From: Nitrosomonas sp.
Lineage (GTDB): Bacteria; Pseudomonadota; Gammaproteobacteria; Burkholderiales; Nitrosomonadaceae
Assembly (NCBI RefSeq): GCF_019752095.1
Contig: NZ_JAIEMO010000025.1
Location: 1 to 64,000, forward strand
DNA: 64,000 nucleotides
Direction: 5' to 3'
Below the pieces are notes generated by a model. The model was given only the letters and a program-made list of their open reading frames with translations, had not been told where the DNA came from and made no database searches. A program made the position numbers and the translations under genes. Below, piece by piece: positions 32,069 to 37,615 of this stretch. Each line of letters opens with the position of its first letter. Position 1 is the stretch's first letter.

Positions 32069-32473
32069 ATGATGGCTCCTAAAAAAATTTATCTCATTTC
32101 ATTGATCCTCCTCTGTGTATGTAGTGGAGTAAAAAATTCATTTGCGACACATATTTCGCAACCTATCTTAATCGACCCTAAAACACACTATGCTGTTGGC
32201 GACACCATTATTCTAAGTGGATGGGTGGAATACAATACCCAACCCGCGCCTGATGTTTTACTTCATTTCAAGCTAACTCGTTTTGATGGATTGCTAGTGG
32301 CGGATCAATCCTATCCTAGCAATCAAGAAGGCCATTTTGAATTTAAATTCGATACCCAAAAAGAAACTCCTGGTAAATATCAGTTCACCGTTACGTCGCA
32401 TTGTCTGGAAATTCATCGATATGCTTGTATTTATAAAAATCAAACCCTACCCATTCAGTTAAACAATCCATAG
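32069..32473 (+). CDS. Small secreted protein of unknown function, Ig/macroglobulin-like fold suspected
   Basis: A 134-residue protein with a signal peptide (about 1-27, ending SFAT). The mature part is beta-rich: YAVGDTIILSGWVEYN, PDVLLHFKLTR, GHFEFKFDTQKETPGKYQFTV, a pattern reminiscent of an immunoglobulin-like or macroglobulin MG-type domain, with two late cysteines that could pair. I do not recognise the family. ATG codons occur at 32069 and 32072; either is possible. It lies 61 bases after lpdA and 141 bases before the retropepsin-like lipoprotein; whether it belongs to that operon is open. Confidence 0.65.
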   Translation: MMAPKKIYLISLILLCVCSGVKNSFATHISQPILIDPKTHYAVGDTIILSGWVEYNTQPAPDVLLHFKLTRFDGLLVADQSYPSNQEGHFEFKFDTQKETPGKYQFTVTSHCLEIHRYACIYKNQTLPIQLNNP

Positions 32474-32614
32474 CAATAACATATGATCCCGTAAAGCTTA
32501 TTGAGTTTTGCAAAGCAAGGATATTTCAAGCTGCGTCCAATAAATGGACAGATTAACTGATATTATCCGTGCAGCTATAATGCCATCGTTTAGATAATTA
32601 AAACTAAGAAAGTT

Positions 32615-33379
32615 ATGAGAATTGTTCACCGGCCTTACACGAAAAATTGTTGCTGTTATTTGTTGTTAACGTTTGCAATATTCACTTTATCGGCCTGTAA
32701 CACGCGCGAAAGTCAACTAGTTGAGCGTGAAGCCAAGATTAGTGCTAGAGAATCAGAGCTAGTTTCCTTGTTATCTGAGCTGGTTGAACAAAAAAAAATG
32801 TTAGAAAAAAATGACTCCGAAAATCTTCCCGAAGCAATACAGGATTCAGCGAAGAAAACTTGTTCGTGCGATTCAAACCTTGACGAAGAAACCAAAAAGA
32901 AACTATCGGATATAACTGAGACTAGAACTAAAACATTATTGGGTGGCATAGAGAATGTTTTTCTCGATCCTCCTGGCATGGAATTTAGCGCACGAATCGA
33001 TACCGGAGCACAAACTTCATCGTTGAATGCGCTCGATATTGTTGAGTTTGAAAGAGATGGGAAGCCATTCGTAAAATTCAACTTAATTCATCCGTTCACC
33101 GGAGATAAACTGGAACTGACCCGGCGATTACGGCGGCACGTACGTATTAAGGGACGTGGCGGCAGGGAATCACATCGTCGCCCGGTGGTCAAAATTCGTG
33201 TTGTACTCGCCGATATTGATGAGCAAATCAATTTTACACTGGAAGATCGCAGTCGCTTCAAACACCAAATACTGATCGGGCGCAATTTACTGCAAGATCT
33301 GGCTATTGTCGATGTCAGCAGGAGAAATGTTGCAACACCCAAAACCGAAAACTCAGATACAGCGAGCGAGATTAAATAA
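32615..33379 (+). CDS. Retropepsin-like lipoprotein (RimB / 'ATP-dependent zinc protease' family)
   Basis: A 254-residue exported lipoprotein: a hydrophobic signal with lipobox LSAC (Cys28), a coiled coil at about 30-75, then a retropepsin-like domain at about 110-240. The key motif is DTGAQTSS near residue 129, the aspartyl-protease signature, with the second half represented by HQILIGRNLL. The family was labelled putative ATP-dependent zinc protease, but the visible motif is that of a single-domain, dimerising aspartic protease. It is the first gene of a tight three-gene set with the 7TM transglutaminase-like protein (stop and start overlap by one base) and an ATP-grasp ligase. This co-occurrence is known from genome comparisons of amidoligase systems. 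The protease substrate is unknown. Confidence 0.85.
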   Translation: MRIVHRPYTKNCCCYLLLTFAIFTLSACNTRESQLVEREAKISARESELVSLLSELVEQKKMLEKNDSENLPEAIQDSAKKTCSCDSNLDEETKKKLSDITETRTKTLLGGIENVFLDPPGMEFSARIDTGAQTSSLNALDIVEFERDGKPFVKFNLIHPFTGDKLELTRRLRRHVRIKGRGGRESHRRPVVKIRVVLADIDEQINFTLEDRSRFKHQILIGRNLLQDLAIVDVSRRNVATPKTENSDTASEIK

Positions 33380-34929
33380 TGCATGCAAAACTAAGGCTCT
33401 ATATTCTCGTTATCCTAATCATGGGATTTGGAATTGGTCTGATTTTGTACAAGCACTTTGCTTTAGGATTTCCCTTATTACCAGACGACAAGAAAGCAGT
33501 CTGGACTATTGAAGCTCGAATAGATTTTGCCGCGCGCGGCGATCCTGTAATCGTATCTTTTGCATTACCCCCGAGGACTCCAGATATTGTTTTTATGAAA
33601 GAAGACTTCGCTTCCCCTGATTACGGGTTTAGTGAAGTTACTTCACCAACAGGGCGTCGTGCTGAGTGGAGCAAAAGAACCGCAAATGGCCCGCAAACAG
33701 CTTATTACCGACTTAGTCTATATGAGACCGAGCAAATTGTTTCTACTCAATTAACAGATGACCTTCCCGCAGAACCTGAGAAACCTGAATTTGATGAAGT
33801 TATCAAGACGGCAGCAATTACTCTGTTGGAACAGGTGCATAGCAGATCTGCCAACACTGAAATTTTTACTCGTGAATTGATCACCACATTAAACTCCAAG
33901 GCACCTAGTCAGAATCAGAGCCTGTTACTAAATGAAAAATCTAGTGAAGATTATAAAACTCATCTAATTATCAATCTGTTGGCAATGGAAGGAATCAGCG
34001 CACGTATTGTCCGCGGGCTGTACCTAGAAGATGGCCGTCGCAGACAATCACTCATCAATTTTGTGGAGGTTTATATTGGCGGGCAATGGCTCTTGTTCAA
34101 TCAGAATACCGGCGTGCATGGAAAACCGGAGAATTTTCTGATCTGGCAGCGTGGCGATCAATCTTTGCTCGATGTAGTGGGCGGCAAGAACTCACAAATA
34201 TCATTCGCTATCATTAAGAACGTTCATTCGACCCGCAATCTAGTGGTAAGCGATGGCATGAACAAACAAGCTGGCTTGGTGGATTTCTCTATCTACAGTC
34301 TACCCATTGAGCAGCAGAATGCATTCAAAATGATTTTATTGCTACCTATTGGCGCCTTAATAGTTGTTATCATGCGTTTACTGATAGGCATAAGGACTTC
34401 CGGAACTTTTATGCCCATTCTGATTGCATTAGCATTAATACAAACAACTTTGCTGACCGGCATTATCATTTTCTTAACAGTTGTCGGGATAGGATTACTG
34501 ATCCGATCATACTTATCGCGTCTAAATCTCCTGTTTGTAGCGCGCATTTCGGCCGTGATTATTGTAGTGATCGCGATCATCGCAAGTATCAGCATTATCA
34601 GCAACAAACTTGGGCTCGATCAGGCCATGACGGTCACTTTCTTTCCAATGATTATTCTATCTTGGACCATTGAACGTATGTCGGTGCTATGGGAAGAAGA
34701 TGGTCCCCGAGAAGTATTTATCCAGGGAGGCGGCAGTCTGTTGACGGCGGTGATTGCCTATTTATTTATGACCAACCAAACCGTTGAGTACCTGACTTTT
34801 AATTTTCCCGAATTGATGCTGGTTAATCTGGCCCTCATCCTGGTGCTGGGACAATATACCGGTTACCGTTTATCCGAGCTGTATCGTTTTCATTCACTGG
34901 AAAGACGCAATGTTTCTGGCAAGCGCTAG
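33379..34929 (+). CDS. Inactive transglutaminase fused to seven transmembrane helices
   Basis: 516 residues: an N-terminal membrane anchor (about 7-27), a large periplasmic part containing a transglutaminase-like fold (about 150-250), and about seven hydrophobic helices from about 318 to 505. The transglutaminase catalytic positions are lost: where an active enzyme has a HAW motif before the EVYV strand there is INF followed by VEVYIGGQWLLF, and the Asp of the last motif lies in NQNTG. The cysteine position is also replaced. It matches the Pfam families described as inactive transglutaminase with 7TM. It probably binds a peptide or amino-acid ligand outside and relays to, or works with, the ATP-grasp enzyme whose gene overlaps its 3' end by 20 bases. 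The starting ATG at 33379 overlaps the previous stop. Confidence 0.88.
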   Translation: MHAKLRLYILVILIMGFGIGLILYKHFALGFPLLPDDKKAVWTIEARIDFAARGDPVIVSFALPPRTPDIVFMKEDFASPDYGFSEVTSPTGRRAEWSKRTANGPQTAYYRLSLYETEQIVSTQLTDDLPAEPEKPEFDEVIKTAAITLLEQVHSRSANTEIFTRELITTLNSKAPSQNQSLLLNEKSSEDYKTHLIINLLAMEGISARIVRGLYLEDGRRRQSLINFVEVYIGGQWLLFNQNTGVHGKPENFLIWQRGDQSLLDVVGGKNSQISFAIIKNVHSTRNLVVSDGMNKQAGLVDFSIYSLPIEQQNAFKMILLLPIGALIVVIMRLLIGIRTSGTFMPILIALALIQTTLLTGIIIFLTVVGIGLLIRSYLSRLNLLFVARISAVIIVVIAIIASISIISNKLGLDQAMTVTFFPMIILSWTIERMSVLWEEDGPREVFIQGGGSLLTAVIAYLFMTNQTVEYLTFNFPELMLVNLALILVLGQYTGYRLSELYRFHSLERRNVSGKR

Positions 34930-35905
34930 GAAACTCAGAAGTTTAGGCATCATCGGGATGAATCAAAGAAATTTTGGCTTGATCTCTCGTTATAACCCGC
35001 GCCATTTGTATCCCCTTGTTGATGACAAGCTCAAGACTAAACTGTTAGCGCAAAAAGCCGGCATTACGGTGCCGAAGTTACTCGGCACCGTGCAATATCA
35101 GCATGATGTCAAGTTATTGAAAGAAATACTCCACCCACATGATCAATTTGTAATCAAACCAGTCAAAGGAAGTGGGGGCAAAGGCATTCTGGTTATTACT
35201 GAACATGATCATAGTCTTTACTTCAAACCCAGTGGTGATTCCATCCAGCTGGTGGAAATTGAAAGACACGTATCAAATATTCTAAGCGGTTTACATAGTC
35301 TGGGCGGCAAACCGGATACTGTCATGATTGAATCGCTGATACAATTGGATCCAGTTTTTTCAGACTATAGTTACGAAGGTATTCCGGATATACGTATTAT
35401 TGTTTTTCGAGGCTACCCTATCATGGCAATGCTACGACTGACGACGCATGTTTCGGATGGAAAAGCCAATTTACATCAAGGTGCAGTGGGTGTCGGGATC
35501 GATATAGGATCAGGCAAAGCGTTGCATGCAGTGCAATACGGCAAATCTATTTCGCACCACCCCGATACACGCAAGACATTTTCAGAACTAACGGTTCCTC
35601 ATTGGGATAAACTGCTGCAACTTGCCGCTGCTTGTTATGAAATGACCGGCTTGGGGTATTTAGGTGCTGATCTGGTATTGGACAGAGATAAGGGTCCCAT
35701 GATTATTGAACTTAACGCACGTCCTGGGCTAGCCATCCAAGTGGCTAACTTTTCTGGCCTAGCGCCACGTGTTGCCGCAATCGAGGCCCTTAAAACTATT
35801 GATCCCAATCCGAAACTACGCGCCGCTTTCAGCAAGACTCATTTCGCTGCCGATGCAGATATTCCATCGCTTCGTCAGCTCCGCACACGTAGTGATGACC
35901 CTTGA
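34910..35905 (+). CDS. RimK-like ATP-grasp ligase (alpha-L-glutamate ligase-related)
   Basis: A 331-residue cytoplasmic ATP-grasp enzyme. The ATP-binding lysine region FVIKPVKGSGGKGILVI lies at about 82-98, the acidic metal-binding end IIELNARPGLAIQVANFSGL at about 265-284, and RIIVFRGYPIMAMLRL is the central strand. RimK-type enzymes join glutamate or other amino acids to peptides or proteins by an isopeptide or peptide bond using ATP. The substrate of this subgroup is not known to me. Its start overlaps the 7TM gene by 20 bases, so expression is coupled. The protease, sensor-like membrane protein and ligase would form a build-sense-cleave system. It converges with the GGDEF gene. Confidence 0.88.
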   Translation: MFLASARKLRSLGIIGMNQRNFGLISRYNPRHLYPLVDDKLKTKLLAQKAGITVPKLLGTVQYQHDVKLLKEILHPHDQFVIKPVKGSGGKGILVITEHDHSLYFKPSGDSIQLVEIERHVSNILSGLHSLGGKPDTVMIESLIQLDPVFSDYSYEGIPDIRIIVFRGYPIMAMLRLTTHVSDGKANLHQGAVGVGIDIGSGKALHAVQYGKSISHHPDTRKTFSELTVPHWDKLLQLAAACYEMTGLGYLGADLVLDRDKGPMIIELNARPGLAIQVANFSGLAPRVAAIEALKTIDPNPKLRAAFSKTHFAADADIPSLRQLRTRSDDP

Positions 35906-35950: not shown

Positions 35951-37615
35951 TTAATCATTTTTATTAATAATCACTTTGTTCCGACCTCTTTGTTTTGCTT
36001 GATAAAGTGCAGCATCAGCTGCTTCACTCAAGCTTGCAGCATCGGGAAAATGTGCAAGATCTGCTATACCGCAGCTAAAATTCACAAAAAATTCCTCATC
36101 GTGACTCAAATGTAATAGCCGCGAGAAAACATTACGTATCTCGTCAATCACTTTCGCTGCCGAAGTTGCATCTGTATCATTCATAATAATTGCAAATTCT
36201 TCGCCACCATACCGGCCGACAATATCTGTTTCTCTTAAGCGTTGCTTGAGCAACCGCGCTAAGCTTTTAATAACGCGATCACCTGCAGCATGCCCATAGG
36301 TATCATTGATATTCTTAAAAAAATCAATATCCACCATAGCAAATGATAATGAAGTATTCAATCGGCTGGAGCGTATTACTTCACGCGCCAGCTCTTCTTT
36401 GATGGCAGTATGGTTGAGTAAGCCGGTCAATCCATCATGAATCATTAAAGATCGTAAGAATCGTGCTCGAGTCACACGTGTTGTTACCGCTGAAATCAAA
36501 TAGATCGGATCGATGGGCTTAACCAGAAAGTCATCACCGCTCAGGGTCATAGCTTCCGGTTGCGTATTGAAATCATTCTCAGAAGAAAGATAGACGATAG
36601 GTGTACTCAAAAAACCATCTATCTGCCGGATAATTTTCGCCAACTCCACACCATTACATCCCGGCATGTACAGATCCATCAAAATGAGATCAGGATTAAA
36701 ATCATTCAATTTATCTAATAGTTGCATTGGCTCGGAAACCGTTCTTACATGCATTTCTGCCTGCTCTAATATGGCTGCATGATAAGCAAGCAGCGTTGGA
36801 CTATCATCCACAATCAATACACGAAACGGCTCCTGAATTTGCGATGCTGTGATTAAGTCCAGTTGATCAATTAATTCATTAGAGTTAATGGGTTTTGTAA
36901 AATACGCGACACTGCCGGCTCGTACTGCACCTAGCCGATACGCCATATCGTCATGCGCTGAAATAAATATCACTCGAAGTGGCCGTGCCTGCCCTTTCTG
37001 AATTTGTTCCATGATTTGAATTCCGCCCATTTCATCCTCAGGAAACTCAATATCCATTAGGATAATCGCATGGGGACACTGCTCAACAGCGACACGGAAT
37101 TTATCGAGATGATTGTAAACCTCAACTTCATAGCCATAATAACGTAACTGCAAAGCGAGTTCTTGCGCTGCCTCGTAATCATCTTCCACCACAAAAATTA
37201 GATTAGATGCGGGAATATTTGGAAGAAGCGCAGACTCATCAGTAGCTTTTGAAATAACCTCGATAGTTAGTATGGATTCTTTTTCAATCGAAATTTTCTT
37301 CAATTCAAGAATCTGCTGCAGAATCCGGGATGTTTGCAATGCATCGGCTGATATATCTTTCTGCATCAGGTTCTTAAGAACCTGTTCCAATGCTCGCGCC
37401 TCTATACTCAGTTCGGGATAACCAAATGTTTTTCCATTGCTGACTAAATTATGCACAGAACGATGCAGCTCTTGAAGCACTTTGACATCCCATTCAATTT
37501 GTAGCTTGGCCCAGAGAGCTTCAATTTCATCCATTCTATCTGGAAGCTCGTGCGCAAATAGTGCCAATAACAAGCGCATCCTTTCCCGAAATTCTTTGTG
37601 TTCTGTCATGTTCAT
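35951..37615 (-). CDS. Response regulator with Hpt-like, two receiver and GGDEF domains (diguanylate cyclase)
   Basis: A 554-residue signalling protein. An Hpt-like helical domain (about 1-115, with LHRSVHNLVSNGKTFG) precedes REC1 (about 140-255: VVEDD, phospho-acceptor LMDIEF, ISAHDD, TKP) and REC2 (about 262-380: IVDDS, ILMDLYMPG, LSSEND, VKP), then a GGDEF domain (about 390-554) with active-site GGEEF near 469 and the product-inhibition I-site RETD five residues before it. All catalytic and phospho-acceptor residues look intact, so phospho-dependent c-di-GMP synthesis with feedback inhibition is expected. The cognate kinase is not nearby. ATG at 37615 lies in an AT-rich context with no strong ribosome-binding site. 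Confidence 0.9.
   Translation of the reverse strand: MNMTEHKEFRERMRLLLALFAHELPDRMDEIEALWAKLQIEWDVKVLQELHRSVHNLVSNGKTFGYPELSIEARALEQVLKNLMQKDISADALQTSRILQQILELKKISIEKESILTIEVISKATDESALLPNIPASNLIFVVEDDYEAAQELALQLRYYGYEVEVYNHLDKFRVAVEQCPHAIILMDIEFPEDEMGGIQIMEQIQKGQARPLRVIFISAHDDMAYRLGAVRAGSVAYFTKPINSNELIDQLDLITASQIQEPFRVLIVDDSPTLLAYHAAILEQAEMHVRTVSEPMQLLDKLNDFNPDLILMDLYMPGCNGVELAKIIRQIDGFLSTPIVYLSSENDFNTQPEAMTLSGDDFLVKPIDPIYLISAVTTRVTRARFLRSLMIHDGLTGLLNHTAIKEELAREVIRSSRLNTSLSFAMVDIDFFKNINDTYGHAAGDRVIKSLARLLKQRLRETDIVGRYGGEEFAIIMNDTDATSAAKVIDEIRNVFSRLLHLSHDEEFFVNFSCGIADLAHFPDAASLSEAADAALYQAKQRGRNKVIINKND

Follow-up and report, generated by a model that had tools for sequence, protein, structure and literature searches.

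Three genes on the forward strand of a 64,000-nucleotide stretch of Nitrosomonas sp. DNA (hereafter the window: bases 1-64000 of contig 2, in a 48-contig assembly of 2.82 Mb that is 94% complete) encode a secreted retropepsin-like aspartic protease, an inner-membrane protein whose transglutaminase domain is dead, and a RimK-like ATP-grasp ligase. Judged by their sequences and order, they are the Nitrosomonas copy of rloABC, the retropepsin-like osmotic stress tolerance operon of Pseudomonas aeruginosa (PA14_41690-41710-41730). The initial annotation had proposed an undescribed system, but rloABC was published in 2025 (Lormand et al. 2025, PMC12239564). What stands of its interpretation is a ligase inside the cell, a membrane protein with a dead transglutaminase and a protease outside, and its idea that a conjugate is made is plausible; the fourth member that it suggested did not hold. 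With confidence just short of even, we consider the operon a polyglutamate-type writer, passer and eraser, in which RloC would make a glutamate-rich chain, RloB would pass it and RloA would cut it. The features of the locus are the following:

32615..33379, + strand: rloA, secreted retropepsin-like aspartic protease of 254 amino acids, predicted lipoprotein whose protease domain is preceded by a charged heptad-like spacer (PF05618, E 1.7e-32)
32696..32698, + strand: codon of Cys28, the predicted lipid-anchored cysteine (LSAC), with Asn as the +2 residue (sequence position)
32999..33022, + strand: DTGAQTSS active-site motif, residues 129-136 (Asp129 kept in all 108 type I loci)
33379..34929, + strand: rloB, inner-membrane protein of 516 amino acids, dead transglutaminase domain plus seven-transmembrane (7TM) module (PF14400, E 3.1e-50; PF14402, E 5.1e-107)
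33448..34248, + strand: pseudo-transglutaminase region of rloB, residues 24-290 approximately, predicted periplasmic (fold of PDB 3isr; E-I-N)
34279..34917, + strand: 7TM module of rloB, residues 301-513 (PF14402)
34910..35905, + strand: rloC, cytoplasmic RimK-like ATP-grasp ligase of 331 amino acids, ELNARPG at residue 267 (PF14397, E 3.3e-98; TIGR02291)
32069..32473, + strand: secreted Ig-like protein of 134 amino acids, a Nitrosomonas-restricted neighbour judging from the distribution of its relatives

All four reading frames lie where the initial annotation had placed them, and its overlaps were verified at base level: the TAA stop of rloA and the ATG start of rloB share base 33379, and 20 bases are common to rloB and rloC. 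The description of the protease as a retropepsin-like lipoprotein likewise agrees with the PF05618 match, the DTGAQTSS motif and the lipobox-like LSAC leading to the predicted Cys28. RloC reaches 458.6 bits against TIGR02291, a model of alpha-L-glutamate ligase-like proteins, above the cut-off of 314.2. RloB obtains 381.7 bits against a cut-off of 900 for the NCBIfam RloB model, and RloA stays under the cut-offs of the NCBIfam RloA3, RloA2, RloA and RimB models, its best score being 101.4 against 210 (RloA3). As RloA and RloB fall below these cut-offs, the window would carry the same kind of system and not the named Pseudomonas proteins. RloA can be aligned to the solved RloA chains 9g58 and 9g59, and the nearest named relative of the locus is an uncultured Nitrosomonas, whose RloB is 99% identical.

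For comparison, 127 loci were assembled, the window included; 125 have an RloB relative, while L084 and L087 do not. Among them, 80 are named loci, the best 80 of 582, which were picked by similarity to the RloB of the window and lean towards its type. By sequence and neighbours, the loci were sorted into 108 of type I (canonical), eight of type II, eight of type III and one type IV-like fusion (L014). All 108 type I loci have the three genes in one order and on one strand, so the linkage of the three families given in the initial annotation goes beyond chance. Nor is co-location confined to close relatives, as it is found in Vibrio, Aeromonas, Shewanella, Marinobacter, Endozoicomonas, Desulfobacterales and Sulfurovum. 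The catalytic Asp of RloA is kept in every type I locus. The ELNARPG motif of RloC, presumably its metal site, is kept in 106 of the 108.

Constant extra partners, which the initial annotation had suggested looking for, were not found. Clustering by BLAST of the 786 neighbouring open reading frames within 4 kb of rloABC in the type I loci (the 22 largest clusters being listed, and some loci stopping at contig ends) gave no extra family that exceeded 30 of the 108 loci. The two largest families occur in 30 loci each, nearly all in Vibrio, Photobacterium, Aeromonas, Shewanella and relatives. Next comes a receiver/GGDEF family of mixed orientation, in 23 loci, whose members may be joined only by a common domain; lpdA is in 13 and the 134-residue protein in 10.

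Most of what is known of the system comes from P. aeruginosa, as told in the available part of the rlo report (PMC12239564). RloA is secreted and dimeric, and its crystal structures have been solved. It cuts reporters with 8 or 10 glutamates and leaves 6 uncut, cleaving C-terminal as well as internal runs, and the R114A and R137A changes reduce cleavage and abolish rescue in vivo. A triple rloA mutant does not grow in salt-free medium, and deletion of rloB, of rloC or of both restores growth fully; the rloB and rloC single mutants show defects of their own, and cell-shape and beta-lactam phenotypes are described for rlo. In that part of the report no encoded periplasmic substrate was found for RloA, and the authors leave the substrate open, with polyglutamated proteins or free polyglutamate as options. 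The natural substrate is the question on which the Pseudomonas work turns; in that genus, osmotic tolerance, biofilm and sensitivity to antibiotics are influenced by the rlo genes. Additionally, partial texts of other papers place PA1766, PA1767 and PA1768 among suppressor mutations in connection with exopolysaccharide in flagellar mutants (PMC7314104), report PA1767 (rloB) to be mutated in four ceftazidime-selected mutants (PMC10187892) and describe hypervesiculation on disruption of HM2192, an inactive-transglutaminase gene of Shewanella vesiculosa annotated with the architecture of RloB (PMC12096838, which cites Iyer et al. 2009 on amidoligases).

The residues of RloA that contact polyglutamate are kept in the window. 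Mapped by their offset from the catalytic Asp on the solved chain 9g58 in the published numbering, K46, R114 and R137 correspond to R127 (a conservative change), R189 and R212. Among the 108 type I proteins, the K46 position holds R or K in 106, the R114 position R in 107 and the R137 position R in 106. In other respects the protease of the window departs from the Pseudomonas one: it is a predicted lipoprotein, has a long spacer (the lipobox lies about 100 residues ahead of the active site) and lacks the cysteine pair of the protease domain, with no Cys after residue 85. The disulfide formed by that pair, described from two Pseudomonas structures, is called conserved in periplasmic orthologs in the accessible text of the report (PMC12239564). 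However, 88 of the 108 type I proteins have no Cys at all after the DTG motif, so the disulfide appears to mark one subclass of RloA rather than the family, with the window and most loci in another. Nearly all RloA proteins with a lipobox (80 of 81) have fewer than two Cys after the active-site motif, and 15 of the 27 without one have at least two. The lipobox calls follow the general lipobox motif and +2 residue rule by pattern matching, with no signal-peptide predictor, and a stricter motif counts 78. The window-type subclass is thus probably lipid-anchored, and this tethered subclass is new in the present analysis. Separately, seven loci (L097-L102 and L105, from six Endozoicomonas and one Oceanospirillales bacterium) encode two fused retropepsin motifs in one RloA chain, a natural single-chain form of the dimer that resembles the step from retropepsin to pepsin.

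In RloB, the loss of catalytic residues that had been read as INF in place of HAW is confirmed: the window has E-I-N at the positions where a catalytic relative has C-H-D. By alignment, the triad is absent from all 108 type I loci and intact in none of the eight of type III. In a model of RloB built from 43 sequences (pLDDT 80.8, pTM 0.59), the best PDB neighbour of this domain is 3isr (Z 15.0, 221 residues aligned, root-mean-square deviation 4.0). The 7TM module, modelled alone (pLDDT 78.1, pTM 0.71), has RnfA, NqrD/E and MtrC as its structural neighbours at ranks 1 to 10 (Z 9.1 to 7.2; the next kind reaches 6.4). The top match aligns 126 residues at Z 9.1 and a deviation of 3.2, with a Foldseek E of only 0.33. 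At ranks 1-5 (RnfA, NqrD and MtrC chains of PDB 8ahx, 9eri, 8acy and 8q3v), the modelled core helices look similarly arranged at Z 7.9-9.1 over 126-127 residues, but there is no sequence similarity (hhalign 0.1-0.4%), and the Rnf/Nqr sequence family PF02508 has no match in the genome of the window. Homology with Rnf/Nqr was rejected, the likeness being at most one of fold and not of sequence kinship. As a hint and no more, the modelled fold suggests a transport-like rather than a receptor-like module.

Homology with CapC/PgsC, prompted by a similar G-x-x-P stretch, was also tried and set aside as unproven, as hhalign gave a probability of 1.3% and P 0.042 in that register with a CapC profile of eight domain copies from only four proteins. 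PF14102 (CapC) has no match in the genome of the window, and CapC genes occur in six of 299 phylum genomes, five above the cut-off. In the four CapC loci read whole, CapC lies inside fused proteins of 1079-1083 amino acids and the TPR and barrel genes of type II (see below) are missing, so replacement of one module by the other in place is not demonstrable. These loci (L237:6487-9726, L238, L239 and L240) have two CapC domains in tandem, beside proteins of 818-827 amino acids (without a Pfam family in L237, which also has a CHASE2 protein), and are not ordinary CapBCA loci.

The membrane module is also found in other settings. Type II (L070-L077, to which a phylum search added L216-L220) has an intact Cys-His-Asp transglutaminase triad in 13 of 13 loci, eight by alignment and five by motifs. 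In 11 of them, the module is followed in turn by an ATP-grasp ligase, a TPR membrane protein and a putative outer-membrane barrel, the last called from its signal-like start, tyrosine-rich sequence and end residues. The other two are L077, where the module is fused to an RloC-like ATP-grasp ligase and the barrel was not found, and L218, which is interrupted by a contig end; a TPR lipoprotein-like gene precedes the operon in L071, L072, L074 and L076. TPR proteins and outer-membrane barrels are typical of envelope-polymer export pathways. In type III, a retropepsin-family gene lies on the strand opposite to the module in seven of eight loci; it is some 4.8 kb off in L081 and of the signal-less RimB kind in L083. 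In type IV (L190, L191 and L192, from Nitrosomonas genomes, and L014), the module begins a longer protein, which in the domain-scanned L191 and L014 ends in a D-Ala-D-Ala-ligase-like ATP-grasp domain. L190 and L192 match the gene order and protein size of L191, the one of the three that was domain-scanned. A HlyD gene precedes and a PGA_cap (CapA-type) gene follows the fusion in L191 (L191:4060-11529). Finally, the plasmid CP007061.1 of Halobacterium sp. DL1 encodes a fusion of 584 amino acids of the module and an RloC-like ligase (L215:6845-8599), missing from the gene table of the collection, and L222, from a genome outside the class, has the module followed by an RloC-like ligase. The modules of L191, L222 and L215 have no transglutaminase match. 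Over all these settings, an ATP-grasp ligase is the most recurrent partner of the module; the exception is five of the eight type III loci, which had none close to it. This linkage and the fusions support the view that module and ligase would form one machine.

On the reading of the operon as a polyglutamate-type writer, passer and eraser, RloC would build, in the cytoplasm and driven by ATP, a glutamate-rich chain, probably alpha-linked, either free or on a carrier. The 7TM module of RloB, docked to RloC, would pass the chain to the periplasm, where the dead transglutaminase domain may bind or guide it without chemistry. There RloA would cut it, as a dimeric aspartic protease that a lipid and a spacer hold at an envelope membrane. 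The anionic chain could tune the osmotic and electrostatic balance of the periplasm at low osmolarity, and its unchecked accumulation would be toxic, which would explain why loss of the protease is harmful and loss of RloB or RloC rescues. The published genetics and the polyglutamate preference of RloA fit such a division into writing by RloC, passing by RloB and erasing by RloA; synthesis of polyglutamate by RloC, its export by RloB, the osmotic role and every function in Nitrosomonas are what we infer. A search of the assembly for a genome-encoded polyglutamate substrate, as eight consecutive Glu codons, found none, and no RimB-RimK pair was found in it at 94% completeness, the best PF08443 match being 44.8 bits; the product of RloC would thus be the likeliest substrate of RloA. 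Both PF05618 proteins of this genome carry N-terminal hydrophobic segments.

Known systems offer partial parallels. With RloABC of P. aeruginosa, the window shares the gene order, a secreted DTGA retropepsin, a dead transglutaminase on a 7TM module, a cytoplasmic ATP-grasp ligase and the arginines probed in Pseudomonas for binding of polyglutamate; it differs in its scores under the NCBIfam Rlo cut-offs and in the RimB-RimK pair, which was not found in the assembly, besides the features of RloA described above. RimB-RimK, as presented in the accessible part of PMC11957791, is likewise a retropepsin and an ATP-grasp ligase that erase and write glutamate chains (poly-alpha-L-Glu of up to 28 units in vitro), but its protease is cytoplasmic, without a signal, and there is no membrane protein. 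The RimK of L083 has 220.2 bits to PF08443 and a Rimk_N domain, whereas RloC of the window has 40.9 bits. PgsBCA/CapBCA is a poly-gamma-glutamate synthase-exporter in which an amide ligase, CapB, of the Mur type, works with a small membrane protein and an outside depolymerase. Its overall logic is similar, and a CapA-type gene stands beside the 7TM-ligase fusion of L191. Nevertheless, the 7TM module has no detectable homology to CapC, and an ATP-grasp ligase takes the place of CapB.

Several observations weigh against the polyglutamate writer, passer and eraser. The cleavage data come from the P. aeruginosa RloA, and that of the window is without the reportedly conserved disulfide. The rlo literature, in the parts available, reports no polymer and no reaction of RloC, and the defects of the rloB and rloC single mutants (PMC12239564, in part) imply that the product is useful and not merely toxic. 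The nearest folds of the 7TM module belong to ion-pumping complexes, without support in sequence, and a Z of about 9 may reflect a common arrangement; homology to CapC is unsupported, with no CapC among the top 25 non-RloB matches listed in an unfiltered search with hidden Markov models. Additionally, a RimK-like ligase lies near the module in only three of the eight type III loci (L083 confirmed by domain scan), and the putative barrel of type II matches no Pfam family or solved chain.

The main rival, which we judge somewhat unlikely, is that RloB and RloC, instead of making a free polymer, tail a single acceptor with polyglutamate (a protein of the envelope, a lipid carrier or an intermediate of peptidoglycan) and that RloA removes the tail. 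RimK tails the ribosomal protein S6 (RpsF) and RimB takes the tail off (PMC11957791, in part), and RloA, according to the same partial rlo report, cuts C-terminal and internal runs alike; the cell-shape and beta-lactam phenotypes and the four ceftazidime-selected PA1767 mutants (PMC10187892, in part) would point to the cell wall. However, no candidate for an acceptor gene accompanies the operon within 4 kb, the commonest extra family (30 of 108 loci) being confined, except for one locus, to the Vibrio, Photobacterium, Aeromonas and Shewanella group; an acceptor may be encoded elsewhere. A sensor system of the sort implied in the initial annotation, with a small conjugate made by RloC, detected by RloB and answered by RloA, seems improbable. 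The absence of the triad from every type I RloB would suit it, as binding domains can be of this kind, and a receiver-GGDEF gene, which adjoins the operon in the window and in some of its relatives, makes a regulatory link possible. Yet the Pfam matches of RloB include no output domain, the module can lack any transglutaminase match (L191, L222 and L215) or stand beside a triad that is intact (all 13 type II loci), and in fold it comes closest to membrane subunits of ion-translocating complexes.

A broader proposal is possible, and we hold it more tentatively than the polyglutamate-type writer, passer and eraser itself: the 7TM module and its ATP-grasp ligase may constitute a previously unrecognised class of amino-acid-polymer synthase-exporters, present in Bacteria and in a haloarchaeon. 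One core would then be combined with different outside modules, namely a dead transglutaminase and a retropepsin in rlo, an intact-triad transglutaminase, TPR protein and barrel in type II, and, where the module is fused to the ligase and has no transglutaminase, HlyD and CapA-type proteins in type IV or no further module in Halobacterium. The rlo product would be a periplasmic glutamate polymer, a protein-like counterpart of the osmoregulated periplasmic glucans. A literature search showed no type II or fused forms, which by itself does not establish their absence from print. As module and ligase recur together, sometimes in one polypeptide, the making and moving of a polymer could be assayed on a single fusion protein, and the intact triad of type II, as the active counterpart of the dead RloB domain, would be useful for learning what the domain binds. 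The most promising lead is this wider family, with the type II operon and the single-chain proteins foremost.

With respect to the small gene upstream of rloA, the 134-residue protein is a genuine one (28 invariant columns and a conserved TSHC-E-H-R--C-Y core among 10 aligned relatives). It is Ig-like at best, given a weak MG2 match in nine of 10 relatives that reaches 17.4 bits in the window against a cut-off of 32.8. Its role as a functional fourth member, as a substrate or inhibitor of RloA, had been suggested by its position, and both its core and its genomic context would favour it: it occurs in 66 of 85 Nitrosomonas genomes, and in 57 of these its gene precedes rlo in the same orientation, at a spacing that fits rloA between (eight do not fit, two perhaps owing to contig breaks, and one has no rlo match). 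We nonetheless consider this role highly improbable. Relatives occur in only two of 369 class genomes, both Nitrosomonas, and in only 10 of the 108 type I loci; 18 of the 83 rlo-bearing Nitrosomonas genomes do without it, and in seven separate cases read its gene adjoins unrelated genes. The gap to rloA, of 141 bases in the window, is unconserved among the six aligned. From this distribution, it is a Nitrosomonas-restricted neighbour and not a member of the system. A candidate promoter in the gap (a 10-of-12 match at 32553-32581) was not used, as eight sites were found against 9.6 in shuffles and the gap is unconserved.

PF14402, the family of the 7TM module, occurs in 83 of 85 Nitrosomonas genomes, in six of 120 sampled genomes of the order (four of the six in the genus of the window), in 79 of 369 of the class and in 48 of 299 of the phylum. 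Its patchy occurrence in the order suggests that Nitrosomonas acquired rlo from other Gammaproteobacteria. In a tree of 62 RloB rows (with a midpoint root, for drawing only), Nitrosomonas rlo falls in two distant places, each supported 100/100: a group of 13 rows, the window included, nested in a clade of 43 rows that also holds Vibrio, Aeromonas and Endozoicomonas, and a group of six rows outside that clade (L011, L012, L186, L188, L193 and L194). The two kinds lie at different sites, after proA-lpdA and, in four of the six second-kind loci (L011, L012, L186 and L193), beside thiG/trmB; in these four, RloA is short, of 190-201 amino acids. For the biology of nitrifiers, the presence of the RloB family in nearly all Nitrosomonas genomes and in two separate lineages suggests a basic envelope role. 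Among mobile elements, seven viral contigs gave pattern matches without a true relative, and a viral structure search had no match below E 0.001. The plasmid collection had matches in Aeromonas caviae, Legionella adelaidensis and Halobacterium, the Aeromonas caviae record being 4.9 Mb long with chromosome-like content.

Directly downstream of rloC and convergent with it, a gene at 35951-37615 (- strand) encodes an Hpt-receiver-receiver-GGDEF protein, and L187 and L183 have a similar gene of 546-553 amino acids at the equivalent place. A second secreted retropepsin, with DTGAETAS, is encoded beside a GreB-like gene on contig 21 of the same genome (L015:7734-8279) and could be redundant with the RloA of the window, as in Pseudomonas.

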